Shown: positions 4,609 to 38,701 of the stretch, one piece after another | How the letters are laid out: every line of letters begins with the position of its first letter | Numbering within the stretch: position 1 is the first letter of the stretch | Source of the DNA: Candidatus Baltobacteraceae bacterium | GTDB taxonomy: Bacteria; Vulcanimicrobiota; Vulcanimicrobiia; Vulcanimicrobiales; Vulcanimicrobiaceae | Assembly (NCBI GenBank): GCA_036488875.1 | Contig: DASXGW010000004.1 | Coordinates: 186,001-250,000, forward strand | DNA: 64,000 nucleotides | Reading direction: 5' to 3' | Notes under the pieces: model-generated | What the model was told of the DNA's origin: nothing | Database searches by the model: none | What the model saw: the letters and a program-made list of their open reading frames with translations, nothing else | Position numbers and translations under genes: made by a program

Positions 4609-5976
<1,368 letters not shown>

Positions 5977-32823: not shown

Positions 32824-32917
32824 GGGAGTGTACGGGTCTGGTGGCCCGCACGGTCTTCAAAACCGCTGAGGCCGGGGCAACTCGGCTGGTAGGTTCGATT
32901 CCTATACGCTCCCGCCA
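32824..32917 (+). tRNA. selC: tRNA-Sec (anticodon UCA)
   Basis: A 94-base tRNA with selenocysteine-tRNA hallmarks. It has an 8-bp acceptor stem (GGGAGTGT with ACGCTCCC, one G-T pair), a 6-bp D stem with a 4-base loop (CGGGTC-TGGT-GGCCCG) and an anticodon loop CTTCAAA with TCA in the middle. A long variable arm contains GCCG...CGGC, followed by a T arm TAGG-TTCGATT-CCTA and an encoded CCA. It decodes UGA as selenocysteine together with SelB, whose gene is at 14234-16090. Its 3' end is the attachment repeat of the island that follows, so the tRNA is kept intact by the integrated sequence. Confidence 0.93.
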
Positions 32918-32918
32918 C
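32892..32918 (+). repeat. Attachment-site direct repeat, left copy (3' end of selC)
   Basis: A 27-base sequence covering the T loop through CCA of selC plus one base, identical to 38675-38701. tRNA 3' ends are classic sites for site-specific integrases. Confidence 0.88.
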
Positions 32919-33194
32919 CTAGCAACAGCATTGTTCTTAGCTGCTCTCTGCGTTCGATTGCCGAATCCCTGAACTCTGAAGGACACACAACGCGACGTGG
33001 CCTCCGATGGAATCCCGTGCAAGTAAAGCGCGTGCTCGCACACCTTTGAGTTAATGCCGGGGCTGAAGCCACGGCTGCGACGCGCCTTCGACCGCGGAAA
33101 CTTGCGATCTCGACGTAAGGTCCCGGTGTTTGCCTGAGCCGGGTACTACGCTAGACGACCGCTTGCAGAGAATAGAGGCGTCAAACACTATTGG
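32919..33194. other. Left end of the island without a recognised gene
   Basis: The 276 bases between the left repeat and the KTSC gene contain only short, unconvincing reading frames. This is where an integrase gene would be expected in many tRNA-integrated elements, but none is present. Confidence 0.5.
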
Positions 33195-33389
33195 CTACTT
33201 GGTGCGCTCGTACTCATATGCGTCCCTTATGAACTCATTGAAGTAGGAGCCCTTAGAGCTTGCATTGAGGAACGTTTTGTATACCAGTAACGGTACATCC
33301 TTAAAACGATACAGATTTCCATCGAAAAAACGTACGCTTAGCACGCTGGTCTCGCGGTCATAAGCGATGGATTCAATTGTCGACGACAC
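33195..33389 (-). CDS. KTSC domain protein
   Basis: A 64-residue protein matching the short KTSC domain pattern: IAYDRETSVLSVRFFDGNLYRFKDVPLLVYKTFLNASSKGSYFNEFIRDAYEY, with the family's SKGSYFN core. The domain occurs alone or fused to nucleic-acid-related proteins; its biochemical role is not firmly known. The GTG start lies 12 bases after the stop of the HTH-XRE/nuclease-like gene, so the two form one leftward unit inside the island. It may be an accessory factor of the restriction system (inference). Confidence 0.75.
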   Translation of the reverse strand: MSSTIESIAYDRETSVLSVRFFDGNLYRFKDVPLLVYKTFLNASSKGSYFNEFIRDAYEYERTK

Positions 33390-33401
33390 TCCAGGAGCGC
33401 C

Positions 33402-34328
33402 TTATTCAGTAGGCATTTCCGGGAGAGCTAACTGGCGCTCCTCGACGATACGCGGCCTAGCGTAAGGATTTAAATCGTCTACTTGGTAAACGGTGCTCAT
33501 GTTGTCGTGAACTTTTGTTTTAATAACAGCGGTTTTTCCGGAATCGCCCGAAGTACTGCTAATATCGAAGTCGTCCTTGGTCAAAACGCCAACCTTAGCC
33601 TCCCAAACAAAGGCGCGAAGTCCTCGATTCGCGGTGCCCCGTGTGAACACACCTGCTTCATCTGTGAGAACATACCGGAATGTGATATACGTTCCCGCCT
33701 TTGGCAGATGTCCTTTGGGACGGTTTGTTTCGAGAGCTACCTTGAGTTCTAAGTCAACGGCGGGAGACTTCTGCGGAAGAAGATCGGGATAAGTATGCGG
33801 TCCATTTCTTATGTAAAGGCCGTTCGACGCTTGAGCGATTCCCGCTCCGAGAAGGTTGCCGACCATTGAAGAAAGGTTCGCGAGTTCCACTAAGCCGGCA
33901 AGGCGGTTTGAGCCGTGCGCGATGAGCTGATCGTCGATTATGTCCAGCGTTTCGTAACAATATCTGATCGCTTCAACGAGCATTTCGCATGTTAGGCCGG
34001 TTAGGTGAGTCAACTGCGCTACGTTGTGGCAGAACTCCGTCGAAACGGCTCGTTCGGTTCGCTCGGGAGCTTTTGGCGGCGCGGCTTCGAGACCCGCTCG
34101 CCCTTCGGCCATAGCGACCAAGCCGGAAAGTGGAAACCCTAGGGCTTCGGCGAGCTTCTGCGCCATGCCGAGCGTGGGCTGGGAGTTGCCCTTTTCTAAG
34201 ACGCCGATGTAGGTCCGGTCAATCCCGGCAAGCTCGGCGAGAGACTCATGAGTAAGATTCTGATCGTTGCGCAGTTCTTTTAAGATCGCAAGAAATGCGG
34301 CGACTAGTCCCTCGTCATTTTCCGACAC
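33402..34328 (-). CDS. HTH-XRE protein with a C-terminal PD...ExK nuclease-like region (candidate fused control/restriction protein)
   Basis: A 308-residue protein in two parts. Residues about 8-72 form an XRE/Cro-type helix-turn-helix (LRNDQNLTHESLAELAGIDRTYIGVLEKGNSQPTL), the fold of restriction-modification control (C) proteins. The remainder is not a family I can name, but residues 181-196 read PD(x)9-DLELK, the arrangement of PD-(D/E)xK nucleases (Asp182, Glu194, Lys196). A KGH and a beta-rich FRYVL segment follow, and WEAK at 242-245 is an alternative ExK. It is divergent from the cytosine methyltransferase across a perfect palindrome, exactly where a C protein or restriction enzyme gene is expected. 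The GTG start has no clear ribosome site. The nuclease assignment is an inference; it could be only a regulator. Confidence 0.6.
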   Translation of the reverse strand: MSENDEGLVAAFLAILKELRNDQNLTHESLAELAGIDRTYIGVLEKGNSQPTLGMAQKLAEALGFPLSGLVAMAEGRAGLEAAPPKAPERTERAVSTEFCHNVAQLTHLTGLTCEMLVEAIRYCYETLDIIDDQLIAHGSNRLAGLVELANLSSMVGNLLGAGIAQASNGLYIRNGPHTYPDLLPQKSPAVDLELKVALETNRPKGHLPKAGTYITFRYVLTDEAGVFTRGTANRGLRAFVWEAKVGVLTKDDFDISSTSGDSGKTAVIKTKVHDNMSTVYQVDDLNPYARPRIVEERQLALPEMPTE

Positions 34329-34365
34329 GCGATGAGTCTAGGCGAGGAGGGAAAGCTTGGTCAAC

Positions 34366-34379
34366 GAGAATATATTCTC
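34366..34379. promoter_or_regulatory. Perfect 14-bp palindrome, candidate C-box operator
   Basis: GAGAATATATTCTC is its own reverse complement. It lies in the 68-base gap between the divergent XRE and methyltransferase genes, 4 bases before the methyltransferase ribosome site. C-protein operators sit in this position in type II systems, so binding by the XRE domain is likely (inference). Confidence 0.6.
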
Positions 34380-34383
34380 CACC

Positions 34384-34390
34384 GGAGGTG
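34384..34390 (+). promoter_or_regulatory. Ribosome binding site that sets a TTG start for the methyltransferase
   Basis: GGAGGTG lies 6 bases before TTG 34397, which starts directly on the conserved methyltransferase fold. This argues against a start at 34295, which would add 34 residues unlike any family member and overlap the divergent gene. Confidence 0.75.
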
Positions 34391-34396
34391 CAAGGT

Positions 34397-35554
34397 TTGG
34401 CGTATCGGCTTTTTGATCTGTTCTCTGGAACAGGTGCCTTCTCAAAGGGTTTCGAGAACTCTCTGTCCGCCGAGTACCAAACGGTTTTCTGCAACGACTT
34501 ACTCCCGGTTGCTGTGCGAACCGCTACTGCCAATCATCCCCATGCAAAGTGTGTCAGCGGCGACATAAGAAAGCTTCGACGCGAACACGTCGCGGAGATG
34601 CTCAAGCTACGTCGTGGGCAGGTTGACGTGATAATCGGAGGTCCCCCTTGCCAGGGATTTTCTTCGATAAGGCCTTTTAGATCATCCGAGGAGGACGATC
34701 CACGGAATAGCCTCTTTGAAGAGTTTGCTTCATTCGTAAACTATTTTCGACCAAGAGCACTCGTTATTGAGAACGTCGTTGGGCTCGCGACGCATAAGGG
34801 TGGCGAGACGATCGAGGCAATGCAAACCTGCTTCGAGCAACTCGGCTACGATACCGACTGGCGCATCCTTAACGCGGCCCACTTTGGTATACCGCAGCGT
34901 AGGGAGCGACTTATTTTCATAGGATTGCCACGCGGAGCGAAGATAACGTTCCCTAACCCAACTCACAGTTCCAATGGAAGCACGATTGGCTACCGTGATC
35001 GGACACGCATGCTTTTGCCTGATGAGGATACGCTATTCACCAGGGCGCCAAACCTTGAGCCCGCTATAACTGTGATGGAAGCAATCGGCGACTTACCAAG
35101 GATCGAATCCGGCGAGGAATCACTGGCGTATGACGTAGCACCGACCAATGCGTACCAAGCAGCTAGGCGAAAGGGCTTGACTAAGCTAACGCTCCACGGA
35201 TCGACGAAGCACACCAAGAAGATGCTTCGTATCATCAAACACTCCGGTCCAAATATTTATTCGATACCGAAGCACCTTATAACCAGCGGCTTTAGCTCGT
35301 GTTATTCGCGGCTCGATGGCGACTGCCCATCGGTAACGATCACCGTTAATTTTGTTCATCCGGCATCGAACCGTTGCATACATCCCGTACTGAACCGTGC
35401 CCTTACCCCTAGAGAGGGCGCACGACTGCAGTCATTCGATGACGATTTTGTTTTCTGCGGAAATCGTTCACAGATCGTAAAGCAGATTGGTAATGCCGTG
35501 CCGCCGCTCCTTGGCAAAGTAATAGGCGAGCACCTCGCATCCCTGATCGCCTAG
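34397..35554 (+). CDS. DNA (cytosine-5-)-methyltransferase
   Basis: A 385-residue type II-style C5 methyltransferase with the canonical motifs in order: I (RLFDLFSGTGAFSKGF, residues 4-19), IV with the catalytic Cys (GGPPCQGFSS, Cys85), VI (ENV, 125-127), VIII (QRRER, 167-171) and X (GNAVPP, 365-370). The variable target-recognition region lies between VIII and about residue 300. It transfers a methyl group from S-adenosylmethionine to cytosine in a specific site; the site cannot be read from sequence. TTG 34397 with GGAGGTG is the start. A vsr gene follows after 2 bases, and the probable control/restriction gene is divergent. The gene is AT-richer than the chromosome around it. Confidence 0.93.
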   Translation: MAYRLFDLFSGTGAFSKGFENSLSAEYQTVFCNDLLPVAVRTATANHPHAKCVSGDIRKLRREHVAEMLKLRRGQVDVIIGGPPCQGFSSIRPFRSSEEDDPRNSLFEEFASFVNYFRPRALVIENVVGLATHKGGETIEAMQTCFEQLGYDTDWRILNAAHFGIPQRRERLIFIGLPRGAKITFPNPTHSSNGSTIGYRDRTRMLLPDEDTLFTRAPNLEPAITVMEAIGDLPRIESGEESLAYDVAPTNAYQAARRKGLTKLTLHGSTKHTKKMLRIIKHSGPNIYSIPKHLITSGFSSCYSRLDGDCPSVTITVNFVHPASNRCIHPVLNRALTPREGARLQSFDDDFVFCGNRSQIVKQIGNAVPPLLGKVIGEHLASLIA

Positions 35555-35556
35555 CG

Positions 35557-36000
35557 ATGACCGCACAAGAGGGACACCTCCGGAAATCCCTGCAAACTTC
35601 AGTTCTCGTATCGAGAAGAATGCAGAATGTCGCCACAAGGGACACGCCGTGTGAACTCGCAGCTCGACAAGTTCTTTCGGCCTATCACGTTCGATACAGG
35701 CTCCACCGAGCGGATTTACCGGGTCGGCCTGATATCTTTATCCCGCGCATAAGGGTTGCGGTATTCGTTCACGGCTGCTTTTGGCACTCGCATCATTGTC
35801 CAAAAGGTAGAAGGCAACCGCGGACAAATGTGGCTTTTTGGGCGGTGAAACTCGCTAATACGGTCGCGAGAGATCGTCGCACCGTGCAGCGGCTACGTGC
35901 CGTTGGTATATCTGTCGTAATACTCTGGGAGTGCGAACAACAGACGTTCCTCGCAAATCTAAGGCGTACCATAGGCACGTATCGTCGAACCGCACTGTAA
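35557..36000 (+). CDS. vsr: Very-short-patch-repair (Vsr-type) DNA mismatch endonuclease
   Basis: A 147-residue protein with the Vsr pattern: RDTPCELAARQVL, YRLHRADLPGRPDIFIPRIRVAVFVHGCFWHSHHC and PRTNVAFWAVKLANTVARD, ending in ILWECE. Likely catalytic Asp59 and the Zn/active-site residues His72, Cys74, His77, His79 and Cys81 are present. Vsr nicks next to T:G mismatches that arise when 5-methylcytosine deaminates, so it protects sites modified by the adjacent methyltransferase, whose stop is 2 bases upstream. The classic MSxIR start motif is only partly present (VSRRMQNVATRDT). Confidence 0.9.
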   Translation: MTAQEGHLRKSLQTSVLVSRRMQNVATRDTPCELAARQVLSAYHVRYRLHRADLPGRPDIFIPRIRVAVFVHGCFWHSHHCPKGRRQPRTNVAFWAVKLANTVARDRRTVQRLRAVGISVVILWECEQQTFLANLRRTIGTYRRTAL

Positions 36001-36227
36001 GGCGTAACGTCTGGACGCATGTGGTTTTGACGATTAACGTACCGCCTAGGCTGCCCGTTGCGATGACGCGCGACTAGGACTGGCGGAGCAAATGGTTCGG
36101 AAAGCTCGATTCGCGTCTGAACTTGGGTACTGTACAACCGCGCAGCCGCGGGTGAAAGAAGGATAGGCAGCACCCAACTCGCAAGCTGTGCCACTTCAAA
36201 TAATGCGACTAGCGGAGGCTCTGTTTC
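36001..36227. other. Intergenic spacer inside the island
   Basis: A 227-base gap between vsr and the helicase gene without a convincing reading frame. It ends in the GGAGG ribosome site of the helicase and probably contains a separate promoter. Confidence 0.4.
36214..36218 (+). promoter_or_regulatory. Ribosome binding site for the island helicase
   Basis: GGAGG lies 9 bases before GTG 36228 and supports that non-ATG start. Confidence 0.65.
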
Positions 36228-38534
36228 GTGCCCGACGCGCTCTATTTTGGTACGACATGGCAGACAGCAGGCTGGCTACTCGAACACGAATCTATACGCA
36301 CGCCACTCCTTGACGCACTCAGCGATCCTGAAAAGCTAAAGGTAGTGCAGATGGGACTGTTTAGGCAGGGCCCAGTTCGAATGGTCTATGACGATAAATT
36401 GGGGCTGGTTTGCTTTTGGAACATCGATTATCTTACCGGGTTGGCGGATGAGGGGCTCGGCTTTATCAAGCTTTCTGGGACGTACGGGCTAGTCAATTTT
36501 CCGAGGATTGCCTTTGAAGCGTTCGAACGCGAGCTGACCGTTCTGAACTATCGCTTGCGTAACCTCATATTCGAATCCGCCTACTATCATCAGGACTTCG
36601 AGGACGGTAGTCATAAGGTTCTTGCGGGGAGAGGCACTGAAGCACGCGACTACAGTATCGGCTATGCCGAAACCCAGCTCGCCGTCAGAGCACAGGCGGT
36701 ATCAAGAAAGGTCGTTGTTTGCGTTGGTCCGGAGGGCGACTGGAAGCGCGCTGGCGCTGCGGCAACTGCTGAGCGGGCCATCCTGGGCGACCTCTCTGAG
36801 TCCCTTGTAGAGCGCATAAGCGAAGCGCGAGGCTCTGCTTCACTATTGACGCAAAATGCGCTCGTCGAACTTCGTATGGCAATTAGTCCACCGATACAGC
36901 AGCCGCCGCTCACCGAGGTAACAAGGCGCGCCGGGCCTCTCGCCGTTGAAGAATCCGACAAATATAGAACCGCCGGATGGCCCTTCGAGCAGTGGTTGTC
37001 CGATGGCACCACGCTTTCCGAGGACCAGCTAAATATCCTCATGGGCGATGGTGTCCTCAAGCATCCAATCCGAATAATTGGGCCGGCTGGTGCAGGCAAG
37101 ACTTTGCTAATGCAGTTGATGGCCATGCGACTGCAAACCATCGATCCATCCGCTTCAAAGATAATCTTCATTACGCACAACCAGCCGATGGAGTTAGCTA
37201 TTCGAGAGCGTTTCGCGGTGCTCGGCGCAAAGCAGTTTACTCTGGCCAACAATATAGCCGTGACCACGCTTGAGCGTTATGCAAATGACACACTGCTGCT
37301 AAGGGACGTTAATCTACTTGAGCCGACCAGTGCAGATGCGAAGAATACGCAGCTCGCATTCGTTAATCAAGCGTTTTTGGAGGCCGCAAAGATCAGCGAA
37401 TCCATCGTTAAGGGATCCGATGTACTCGGCGTAATCGCTAAGGACCTTAATACGTTTGGCGAATTTGTGCGGTCCGACTTCTCCGTGGCAATCAAAGCGC
37501 AAAATCTCCAATCCGATAAGACGTCATATGTAAACTCCTCCGTTGCGCTCGGTAAACTGCACGGGATTCTTACGCCTGATGAGCGAGCGGTCGTATATCA
37601 AGCGTTCCAGATATATCAGAATATGCTCGATGAGTACGGCGTGCTTGACACTGATGACGTGGCTCTTACGATGCTTGGAAAATTAAGCTCACCTGTCTGG
37701 CACCACCAGCGCAAATCTATGGGATTTGACTATATATTTGTAGACGAGGCGCAATTGTTCAACGAAAATGAGCGCAAGATTTTTCAGTACCTCGGCAATG
37801 GGAAGCGACCATTTGTGCCAATCGTTCTTGCTCTCGACGAGGGCCAGCAGTTTTTCGGCGAATCGCGGGTAGGTCTAGCTCTTCTTGGGATTAAGGACGC
37901 CGAACGCGAGAATCTTCGATACAATCATCGAATGACGGCTAGAATCGCCGACTTGGCTTTTTACGTGATTTCGCAGAGCACGGAGCTTTTTACGCTGGAT
38001 TTCCCTGACTACACGAAGACCACCGAGACGCCCTCTCACACGTCCGATGGAAGCAAGCCACACTTGGAGCGCGTCGGAGCCGACGAATTTCTATCTAACG
38101 CGGTCGCCCAACTTGTTAGGGACTGTCGCCGCGATGGATTAAGGCAGATTGCGATCGTTTGTTTTAACGAGTCCTACTGGTTGGAGCTCGAAGAGAAACT
38201 CAAGGACAAATTAAAGGACTTGGATTTTTTCCCGATGTTGCGGCGTGGGGAGCGCCCGCGCGGACATAGCTTCACGACCCTTTGCCGGCCGGCAATTGTC
38301 GGCGGCCAGGAGTTCGACGCAGTAATCGCCGTCGGCCTGGAACAGGGGGTCGTTCCAAAATATGTTTCAAATTCGGCACTGCAAACCGCTCTTGAACAGC
38401 AAGCTCTTAGGGATGTGTATGTTACATTTAGTCGCGCGAAGGACAGGCTGACGGTATTGATCGGTAGTCAGGCCGATCCCGCGCCAATTCTAAGGGGTGC
38501 AATTGAGCAGGGCCTTCTCGAAGTCATACCATAG
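36228..38534 (+). CDS. SF1 (UvrD/Rep-like) helicase with an unrecognised N-terminal domain
   Basis: A 768-residue protein. Residues 1 to about 240 are not recognised. Motor motifs follow: Walker A GPAGAGKT (residues 285-292), Walker B YIFVDEAQ (about 502-509), the LDEGQQFF segment, LRYNHRMT (motif IV-like Arg), and the C-terminal GQEFDAVIAVGLEQGVVP and YVTFSRAKDRLTVLIG typical of UvrD_C/SF1 helicases. It should be an ATP-driven DNA translocase. It is the last gene before the right attachment repeat, on the methyltransferase-vsr strand. The N-terminal domain may be a substrate sensor or nuclease; I see no PD-ExK motif there. A defence role is inferred from location. Confidence 0.82.
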   Translation: MPDALYFGTTWQTAGWLLEHESIRTPLLDALSDPEKLKVVQMGLFRQGPVRMVYDDKLGLVCFWNIDYLTGLADEGLGFIKLSGTYGLVNFPRIAFEAFERELTVLNYRLRNLIFESAYYHQDFEDGSHKVLAGRGTEARDYSIGYAETQLAVRAQAVSRKVVVCVGPEGDWKRAGAAATAERAILGDLSESLVERISEARGSASLLTQNALVELRMAISPPIQQPPLTEVTRRAGPLAVEESDKYRTAGWPFEQWLSDGTTLSEDQLNILMGDGVLKHPIRIIGPAGAGKTLLMQLMAMRLQTIDPSASKIIFITHNQPMELAIRERFAVLGAKQFTLANNIAVTTLERYANDTLLLRDVNLLEPTSADAKNTQLAFVNQAFLEAAKISESIVKGSDVLGVIAKDLNTFGEFVRSDFSVAIKAQNLQSDKTSYVNSSVALGKLHGILTPDERAVVYQAFQIYQNMLDEYGVLDTDDVALTMLGKLSSPVWHHQRKSMGFDYIFVDEAQLFNENERKIFQYLGNGKRPFVPIVLALDEGQQFFGESRVGLALLGIKDAERENLRYNHRMTARIADLAFYVISQSTELFTLDFPDYTKTTETPSHTSDGSKPHLERVGADEFLSNAVAQLVRDCRRDGLRQIAIVCFNESYWLELEEKLKDKLKDLDFFPMLRRGERPRGHSFTTLCRPAIVGGQEFDAVIAVGLEQGVVPKYVSNSALQTALEQQALRDVYVTFSRAKDRLTVLIGSQADPAPILRGAIEQGLLEVIP

Positions 38535-38674
38535 CATCTCGTCTAACATTTTCTAACGGACCGGTCGGAAACGGAAGGGACACGACGGCATTGGCAGGGA
38601 GCCAAGGCTTCTGAAAATGCAACAGGCCAACACTATTCGGTAACGGTAGGAATTGCCCGGAACCCCCGAATTGT

Positions 38675-38701
38675 GGTTCGATTCCTATACGCTCCCGCCA
38701 C
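38675..38701 (+). repeat. Attachment-site direct repeat, right copy
   Basis: A 27-base copy identical to the selC 3' end at 32892-32918. The sequence upstream of it has no tRNA-like 5' portion, so this is a displaced tRNA end, marking the distal junction of the island. Confidence 0.88.

Follow-up and report, generated by a model that had tools for sequence, protein, structure and literature searches.

A probable control and restriction fusion in a tRNA-Sec island

Within the window, i.e., the whole 64,000-nucleotide stretch of Candidatus Baltobacteraceae DNA analyzed here, two att-like direct repeats lie 5783 bp apart and delimit an island of ~5.8 kb (5.76 kb between the repeats), whose only genes encode a fused controller (C) protein and restriction endonuclease (REase), hereafter CR, a methyltransferase, a Vsr endonuclease, and a UvrD-like helicase (Table 1). 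The repeat of the tRNA 3′ end occurs at both borders, as expected of a tRNA-integrated island, and G+C content is lower in the island (mostly 0.50–0.55) than in the flanks (about 0.60). No integrase ORF was found within 32919–38674, and the two matches to PF00589 in the genome are both on other contigs. In two host relatives (G073 and G033) compared in search of an empty insertion site, the tRNA-Sec gene is followed by unrelated DNA and the flanks are not syntenic. A family-level host relative carries a gene for a HipA-like kinase downstream of its tRNA-Sec (L093, 865–2499), and the tRNA-Sec gene is possibly a hot spot for insertions.

Table 1 Features of the island and of the CR gene in the window
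Feature	Position	Strand	Evidence
tRNA-Sec gene, insertion target	32824–32917	+	RF01852, 78 bits; ARAGORN
Left att-like direct repeat, 27 bp, tRNA-Sec 3′ end	32892–32918	+	
CR fusion gene (XRE/C-protein domain and PD-(D/E)XK restriction endonuclease), 308 aa, GTG start	33402–34328	−	
PD-(D/E)XK endonuclease domain, about residues 104–286	33471–34019	−	AlphaFold2 and fold comparison
Active-site motif P181-D182 ... E194-L-K196	33741–33788	−	invariant in 79/79 rows
XRE/C-protein domain, residues 16–69	34122–34283	−	HTH_3; C.BclI and C.AhdI sequence; C.Esp1396I fold
Putative CR promoter: −35 TTGACC (34364–34359), −10 TAGACT (34340–34335)	34335–34364	−	predicted
Palindromic candidate operator GAGAATATATTCTC, common to both divergent genes	34366–34379	.	
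Putative methyltransferase −10 TATATT, within operator	34371–34376	+	predicted; position in relatives
C5-cytosine DNA methyltransferase	34397–35554	+	PF00145, sequence, and homology start in relatives
Vsr mismatch endonuclease (nicking)	35557–36000	+	TIGR00632, 122 bits vs cut-off 97.85
UvrD/Rep-like superfamily 1 helicase, island cargo	36228–38534	+	
Right att-like direct repeat, 27 bp, 100% identical	38675–38701	+	

The original prediction had proposed an ORF joining an XRE domain to a PD and a DLELK motif, divergent from a C5 methyltransferase and with no separate restriction enzyme in the island. All of these elements could be located: the ORF at exactly the predicted position, its HTH_3 domain, PD at residues 181–182 and DLELK at 192–196, the divergent methyltransferase (PF00145, E = 2.1e-59), and, as the remaining island genes, Vsr and the helicase. 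A C-protein/XRE N-terminus and an REase C-terminus are thus found in a single ORF beside a methyltransferase gene. The methyltransferase ORF is open from an ATG at 34295, inside the CR gene, which is the start given by the ORF tool. Since homology to most relatives begins only at about residue 37–39 of this ORF, and a TTG at 34397 stands 8 nt after a GGAGG (34384–34388), this TTG is more likely the true start judging from sequence, in which case the two genes would not overlap. About 270 N-terminal residues of the helicase are without a known family, and the protein gave weak matches to GajB and to RT-associated helicases.

The N-terminal domain of CR matches controller proteins by sequence and fold. 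Its HTH_3 match was well above the Pfam cut-off (E = 1.4e-13), the nearest solved sequences were the controller proteins C.BclI and C.AhdI, and the PADLOC Control_protein model matched it at E = 8.5e-10. Fold comparison of the AlphaFold2 model with C.Esp1396I yielded Z = 13.1 over 76 residues.

The endonuclease domain of CR

Next, we evaluated the C-terminal half for conservation and fold. A genome-collection scan with a profile built from a three-sequence alignment returned 79 loci, and conservation was read from an alignment of the window protein and 78 homologues from many phyla (79 rows). P181, D182, E194, K196, G206, and H207 were invariant in 79/79 rows, so the PD...ELK motif exceeds what chance would produce. 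The proposed catalytic residues D182, E194, and K196 are therefore conserved, as is P181, while the DLELK motif held only in part: D192 varies, with G taking its place across the distant half of the homologues. AlphaFold2 modeled the window protein, with 40 relatives, at a mean pLDDT of 91.6. Because the XRE domain dominated the fold search with the whole protein, residues 86–308 were modeled (pLDDT 90.4) and searched separately. The best VIA-align match of this model was NaeI (Z = 9.7, 3.6 Å, 152 residues), followed by DpnI, SwaI, NhoI, 3ndh, BglI, SfiI, EcoRV, HincII, and PvuII. Among the best 50 structures, all were restriction enzymes save two Hjc resolvases, which are themselves PD-(D/E)XK enzymes. 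The catalytic residues are located on adjacent strands of the model (183–185 and 193–199), i.e., the usual PD-(D/E)XK arrangement, and the predicted nuclease core is thus present in the model. NaeI is the closest solved fold for residues 104–286, yet at 8% identity we claim neither membership of its family nor a common target.

Profile comparisons pointed in the same direction. The PADLOC Type II REase model PDLC03564 matched the window protein weakly (residues 112–197, E = 6.7e-4), while it matched two REases of a relative locus, L005, at E = 1e-41 and 3e-45, and the CR nuclease domain is homologous to these two by profile (96%, E = 2.4e-9). If CR were a transcription factor whose C-terminal domain had nothing to do with nucleases, PD and ELK would be a chance resemblance, a reading to which the lack of any Pfam or NCBIfam family covering residues 80–308 lends some room; given the invariant motif, the restriction-enzyme fold match, and the Type II REase profile homology, it is hardly credible, and at the level of sequence and model, motif and fold already refute it. 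We also considered that the nuclease may be inactive in this host, with the XRE part regulating a solitary methyltransferase whose deamination damage is repaired by Vsr. The Vsr gene does adjoin the methyltransferase in the window and was found with none of the fused relatives in flanking stretches of up to 5 kb, but all catalytic and fold residues are preserved without variation, the ORF has its full length, and the model is confident, which makes an inactive nuclease improbable. By sequence and model, the C-terminal half of CR is a PD-(D/E)XK restriction endonuclease domain with predicted activity.

Three assignments to known REase families were not retained. Orthology to PvuII was rejected, as a PDB search with a 41-sequence profile, taken as far as E = 1, recovered none of the PvuII chains. 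A relationship to BbvCI/Bpu10I, considered because L005 combines two REases and two C5 methyltransferases, was unsupported by the PDB search, and we therefore do not infer a recognition sequence for the CR system. The NotI family was considered because a 38%-identical methyltransferase adjoins a NotI-family REase, but the REase domain gave no such match.

Fused and unfused relatives

The same fusion was found in 15 relatives (L003 and L007–L020), at 46–55% identity to the window protein, with hosts including Pseudomonadota, Bacillota, Verrucomicrobiota, Deinococcota, Acidobacteriota, and Latescibacterota. A mobilizable Psychrobacter plasmid of 10 kb carries one of them. By BLAST, 14 of the 15 had a C5 methyltransferase 58–66% identical to that of the window, upstream and on the opposite strand; in L010, it came out in two pieces. 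Relatives of Vsr and of the helicase were not found near the other fused systems, within flanks of at most 5 kb per side. No CR homologue was detected in 148 other genomes of the host phylum, and no relative was confirmed on viral contigs with either query.

Farther out, the homologues are unfused REases of ~215 aa adjoining convergent methyltransferases of the N6_N4_Mtase type, several of them with a separate C gene ahead, which some overlap. The tree brings the 16 fused C5 systems together (SH-aLRT 85 for all 16, drawn open), with 99 for a group of 14 that includes the window. A second fusion, L026, is placed among the split forms, so that fusion arose at least twice in the CR nuclease family; a separate event is known from published work on the PvuII family (PMC3850674). 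This independent C-REase fusion (4968–5828) comes from a Desulfobacterales MAG and adjoins an N6_N4-type methyltransferase. The homologues closest to the fused clade, two Butyrivibrio proteins (L022, 4983–5612; L023, 4944–5573), are without an XRE domain or a recognized methyltransferase nearby, and are possibly orphan REases. L005 (2380–6442), on Peribacillus simplex plasmid pSHB26, carries a pair of C5 methyltransferases, one of them 55% identical to that of the window, and a pair of paralogous REases to which the CR nuclease domain is homologous, in the gene arrangement of an asymmetric heterodimeric restriction system. Compared to such free PDLC03564-type REases, the window thus has a homologous nuclease domain, but one that is fused and scores only weakly.

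C-REase fusions have been characterized in the PvuII family, CR.NsoJS138I among them, by Liang and Blumenthal 2013 (PMC3850674). These likewise combine an N-terminal C protein with a PD-(D/E)XK REase, are spread over phyla, have the operator upstream, and mostly have a divergent methyltransferase. By contrast, the window REase has no detectable sequence kinship to R.PvuII (Z = 5.3 by fold), lies in an island with a C5 methyltransferase, Vsr, and tRNA-Sec, and has one palindrome instead of the paired C-boxes of the PvuII-family fusions. The literature found included no report of C-REase fusions in this REase family, although automatic REBASE entries may exist for some of the proteins. The suggestion that such a fusion would be unusual needs correction: it is not unprecedented (PMC3850674), although the fusion in the window belongs to a separate REase family.

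A single conserved operator between divergent promoters

An addition to the original finding, and a new one, is a perfect 14-bp palindrome between the two divergent genes of the window, which is the sole match to the pattern GAGAMTATAKTCTC in the 3.7-Mb genome. At the equivalent place, 14 of the 15 relatives display GAGACTATAGTCTC or a near copy inside a longer conserved CCGGTGGAGACTATAGTCTCGTGG, while in L008 the operator is absent from the expected place. The window matches this 24-mer at 21 of 24 positions, a level equaled by 0 of 20,000 shuffles. On the methyltransferase strand, eight relatives have TTGACA or TTGACT 17 nt upstream of the TATAGT of the palindrome (18 nt in L010), and on the CR strand most have a −10-like hexamer 24–25 nt past the palindrome; neither promoter alignment score was reached in 2000 shuffles. 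Since the relatives share descent, these promoter and operator counts describe a conserved layout rather than independent events. From the promoter positions in relatives, the operator would cover the methyltransferase −10 and be centered near −43 of the CR promoter, which it abuts. The CR transcript is predicted from sequence to be leaderless, with a start at 34328.

Published C-boxes comprise a pair of inverted repeats, with GACT as the core (PMC5282649; PMC8053105). Activation by C proteins proceeds from the promoter-distal operator and gives way to repression once the second operator is filled (PMC8053105). Unfused cousins have such a double box, for instance ACTTATAGTCTGTAGACTTATAGAGT ahead of the C gene of L038. 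In the window and 14 fused relatives, however, a single palindrome was found rather than the canonical OL and OR before the C gene, and neither inspection by eye nor palindrome ranking revealed a second operator ahead of the CR gene in the fused clade. On the sequence, the natural reading is that the operator serves to repress the methyltransferase and activate CR.

In the mechanism that we infer from sequence and models, which extends to cleavage, dimerization, operator binding, and the direction of regulation, the C-protein domain would dimerize on the lone palindrome, which in relatives contains the −10 of the methyltransferase promoter. Bound there, it would block that promoter and, with the operator centered near −43 of the CR promoter, touch RNA polymerase at the latter. 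Upon entry into a new cell, the methyltransferase would thus be expressed first, with CR accumulating afterwards, and the PD-(D/E)XK domain would cut unmethylated target DNA, probably as a dimer.

A simpler scheme is that palindrome-bound CR silences both divergent promoters, so that the endonuclease limits its own level. A single operator between both promoters would suit such an autorepressor, and the putative CR promoter of the window, with a good −35 (TTGACC, better than in relatives) and a −10 TAGACT, perhaps makes activation needless. However, CR promoters of the relatives combine a conserved −10 with a poor −35 beside the operator, the center near −43 is the place of an activator, and known C proteins repress through a second filled operator (PMC8053105), while no second box was seen here. 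We therefore regard autorepression as doubtful, and the self-limiting expression originally suggested was not upheld: the single operator is so placed that binding would be expected to repress the methyltransferase promoter and would be likelier to activate than to repress the CR gene. As the methyltransferase promoter of the window has no recognizable −35 and its CR promoter a good one, the direction of regulation may nevertheless differ in the window. Overall, the fold, the invariant catalytic residues, the linkage to a methyltransferase, and the conserved operator support the predicted fusion of a C protein with a PD-(D/E)XK endonuclease, and place it in a C5 restriction-modification system. 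That the gene is the CR fusion of a mobile Type II (C5) system, under single-operator control as proposed above, we consider very probable.

The window also displays a paired change in operator and protein. C.Esp1396I uses R46 and T36 to contact G and C, respectively, in the GTC of its C-box (PMC4041747). This controller has the same XRE fold, and two of its base-reading residues, R35 and T36, are equivalent to R38 and T39 of the window. The lone operator OM of its methyltransferase is likewise a palindrome with a central TATA; unlike CR, this controller is small and unfused and has additional operators. In the structural alignment (model residues 6–81 with chain residues 3–78, i.e., 76 residues), R46 and T36 correspond to residues 49 and 39. 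T39 is retained in the window protein, while residue 49 is Arg in 15/15 relatives and Ser in the window only, where C.Esp1396I has R46. The operator G is likewise lost in the window only, which reads TTC instead of GTC. From sequence, this is the change expected if the XRE domain reads the palindrome, and it represents one event in one lineage.

One tentative possibility is that the fusion takes the place of the usual two-operator C-box switch: dimerization through the nuclease domain would provide the second protein contact, or compete for it. A single operator shared by both genes would then be enough to shut the methyltransferase off and turn the endonuclease on, the amount of endonuclease setting the timing. 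In addition, the system of the window would have re-tuned its operator (G to T) in concert with the residue that reads it (Arg to Ser), and would thereby be orthogonal to those of its relatives.

The fusion type itself is known; new is a CR fusion in an REase family apart from that of PvuII, and a conserved control site that goes with it. A ready-made specificity experiment is offered by the joint change in operator and reading residue, and the independent fusion of L026 allows one to ask whether joining regulator and nuclease alters the timing of restriction. Taken together, a different REase family has made the same C-REase fusion as the PvuII orthologues and retained it in several phyla; the control region of the fused clade has one operator, compared to the double C-box of its unfused cousins.
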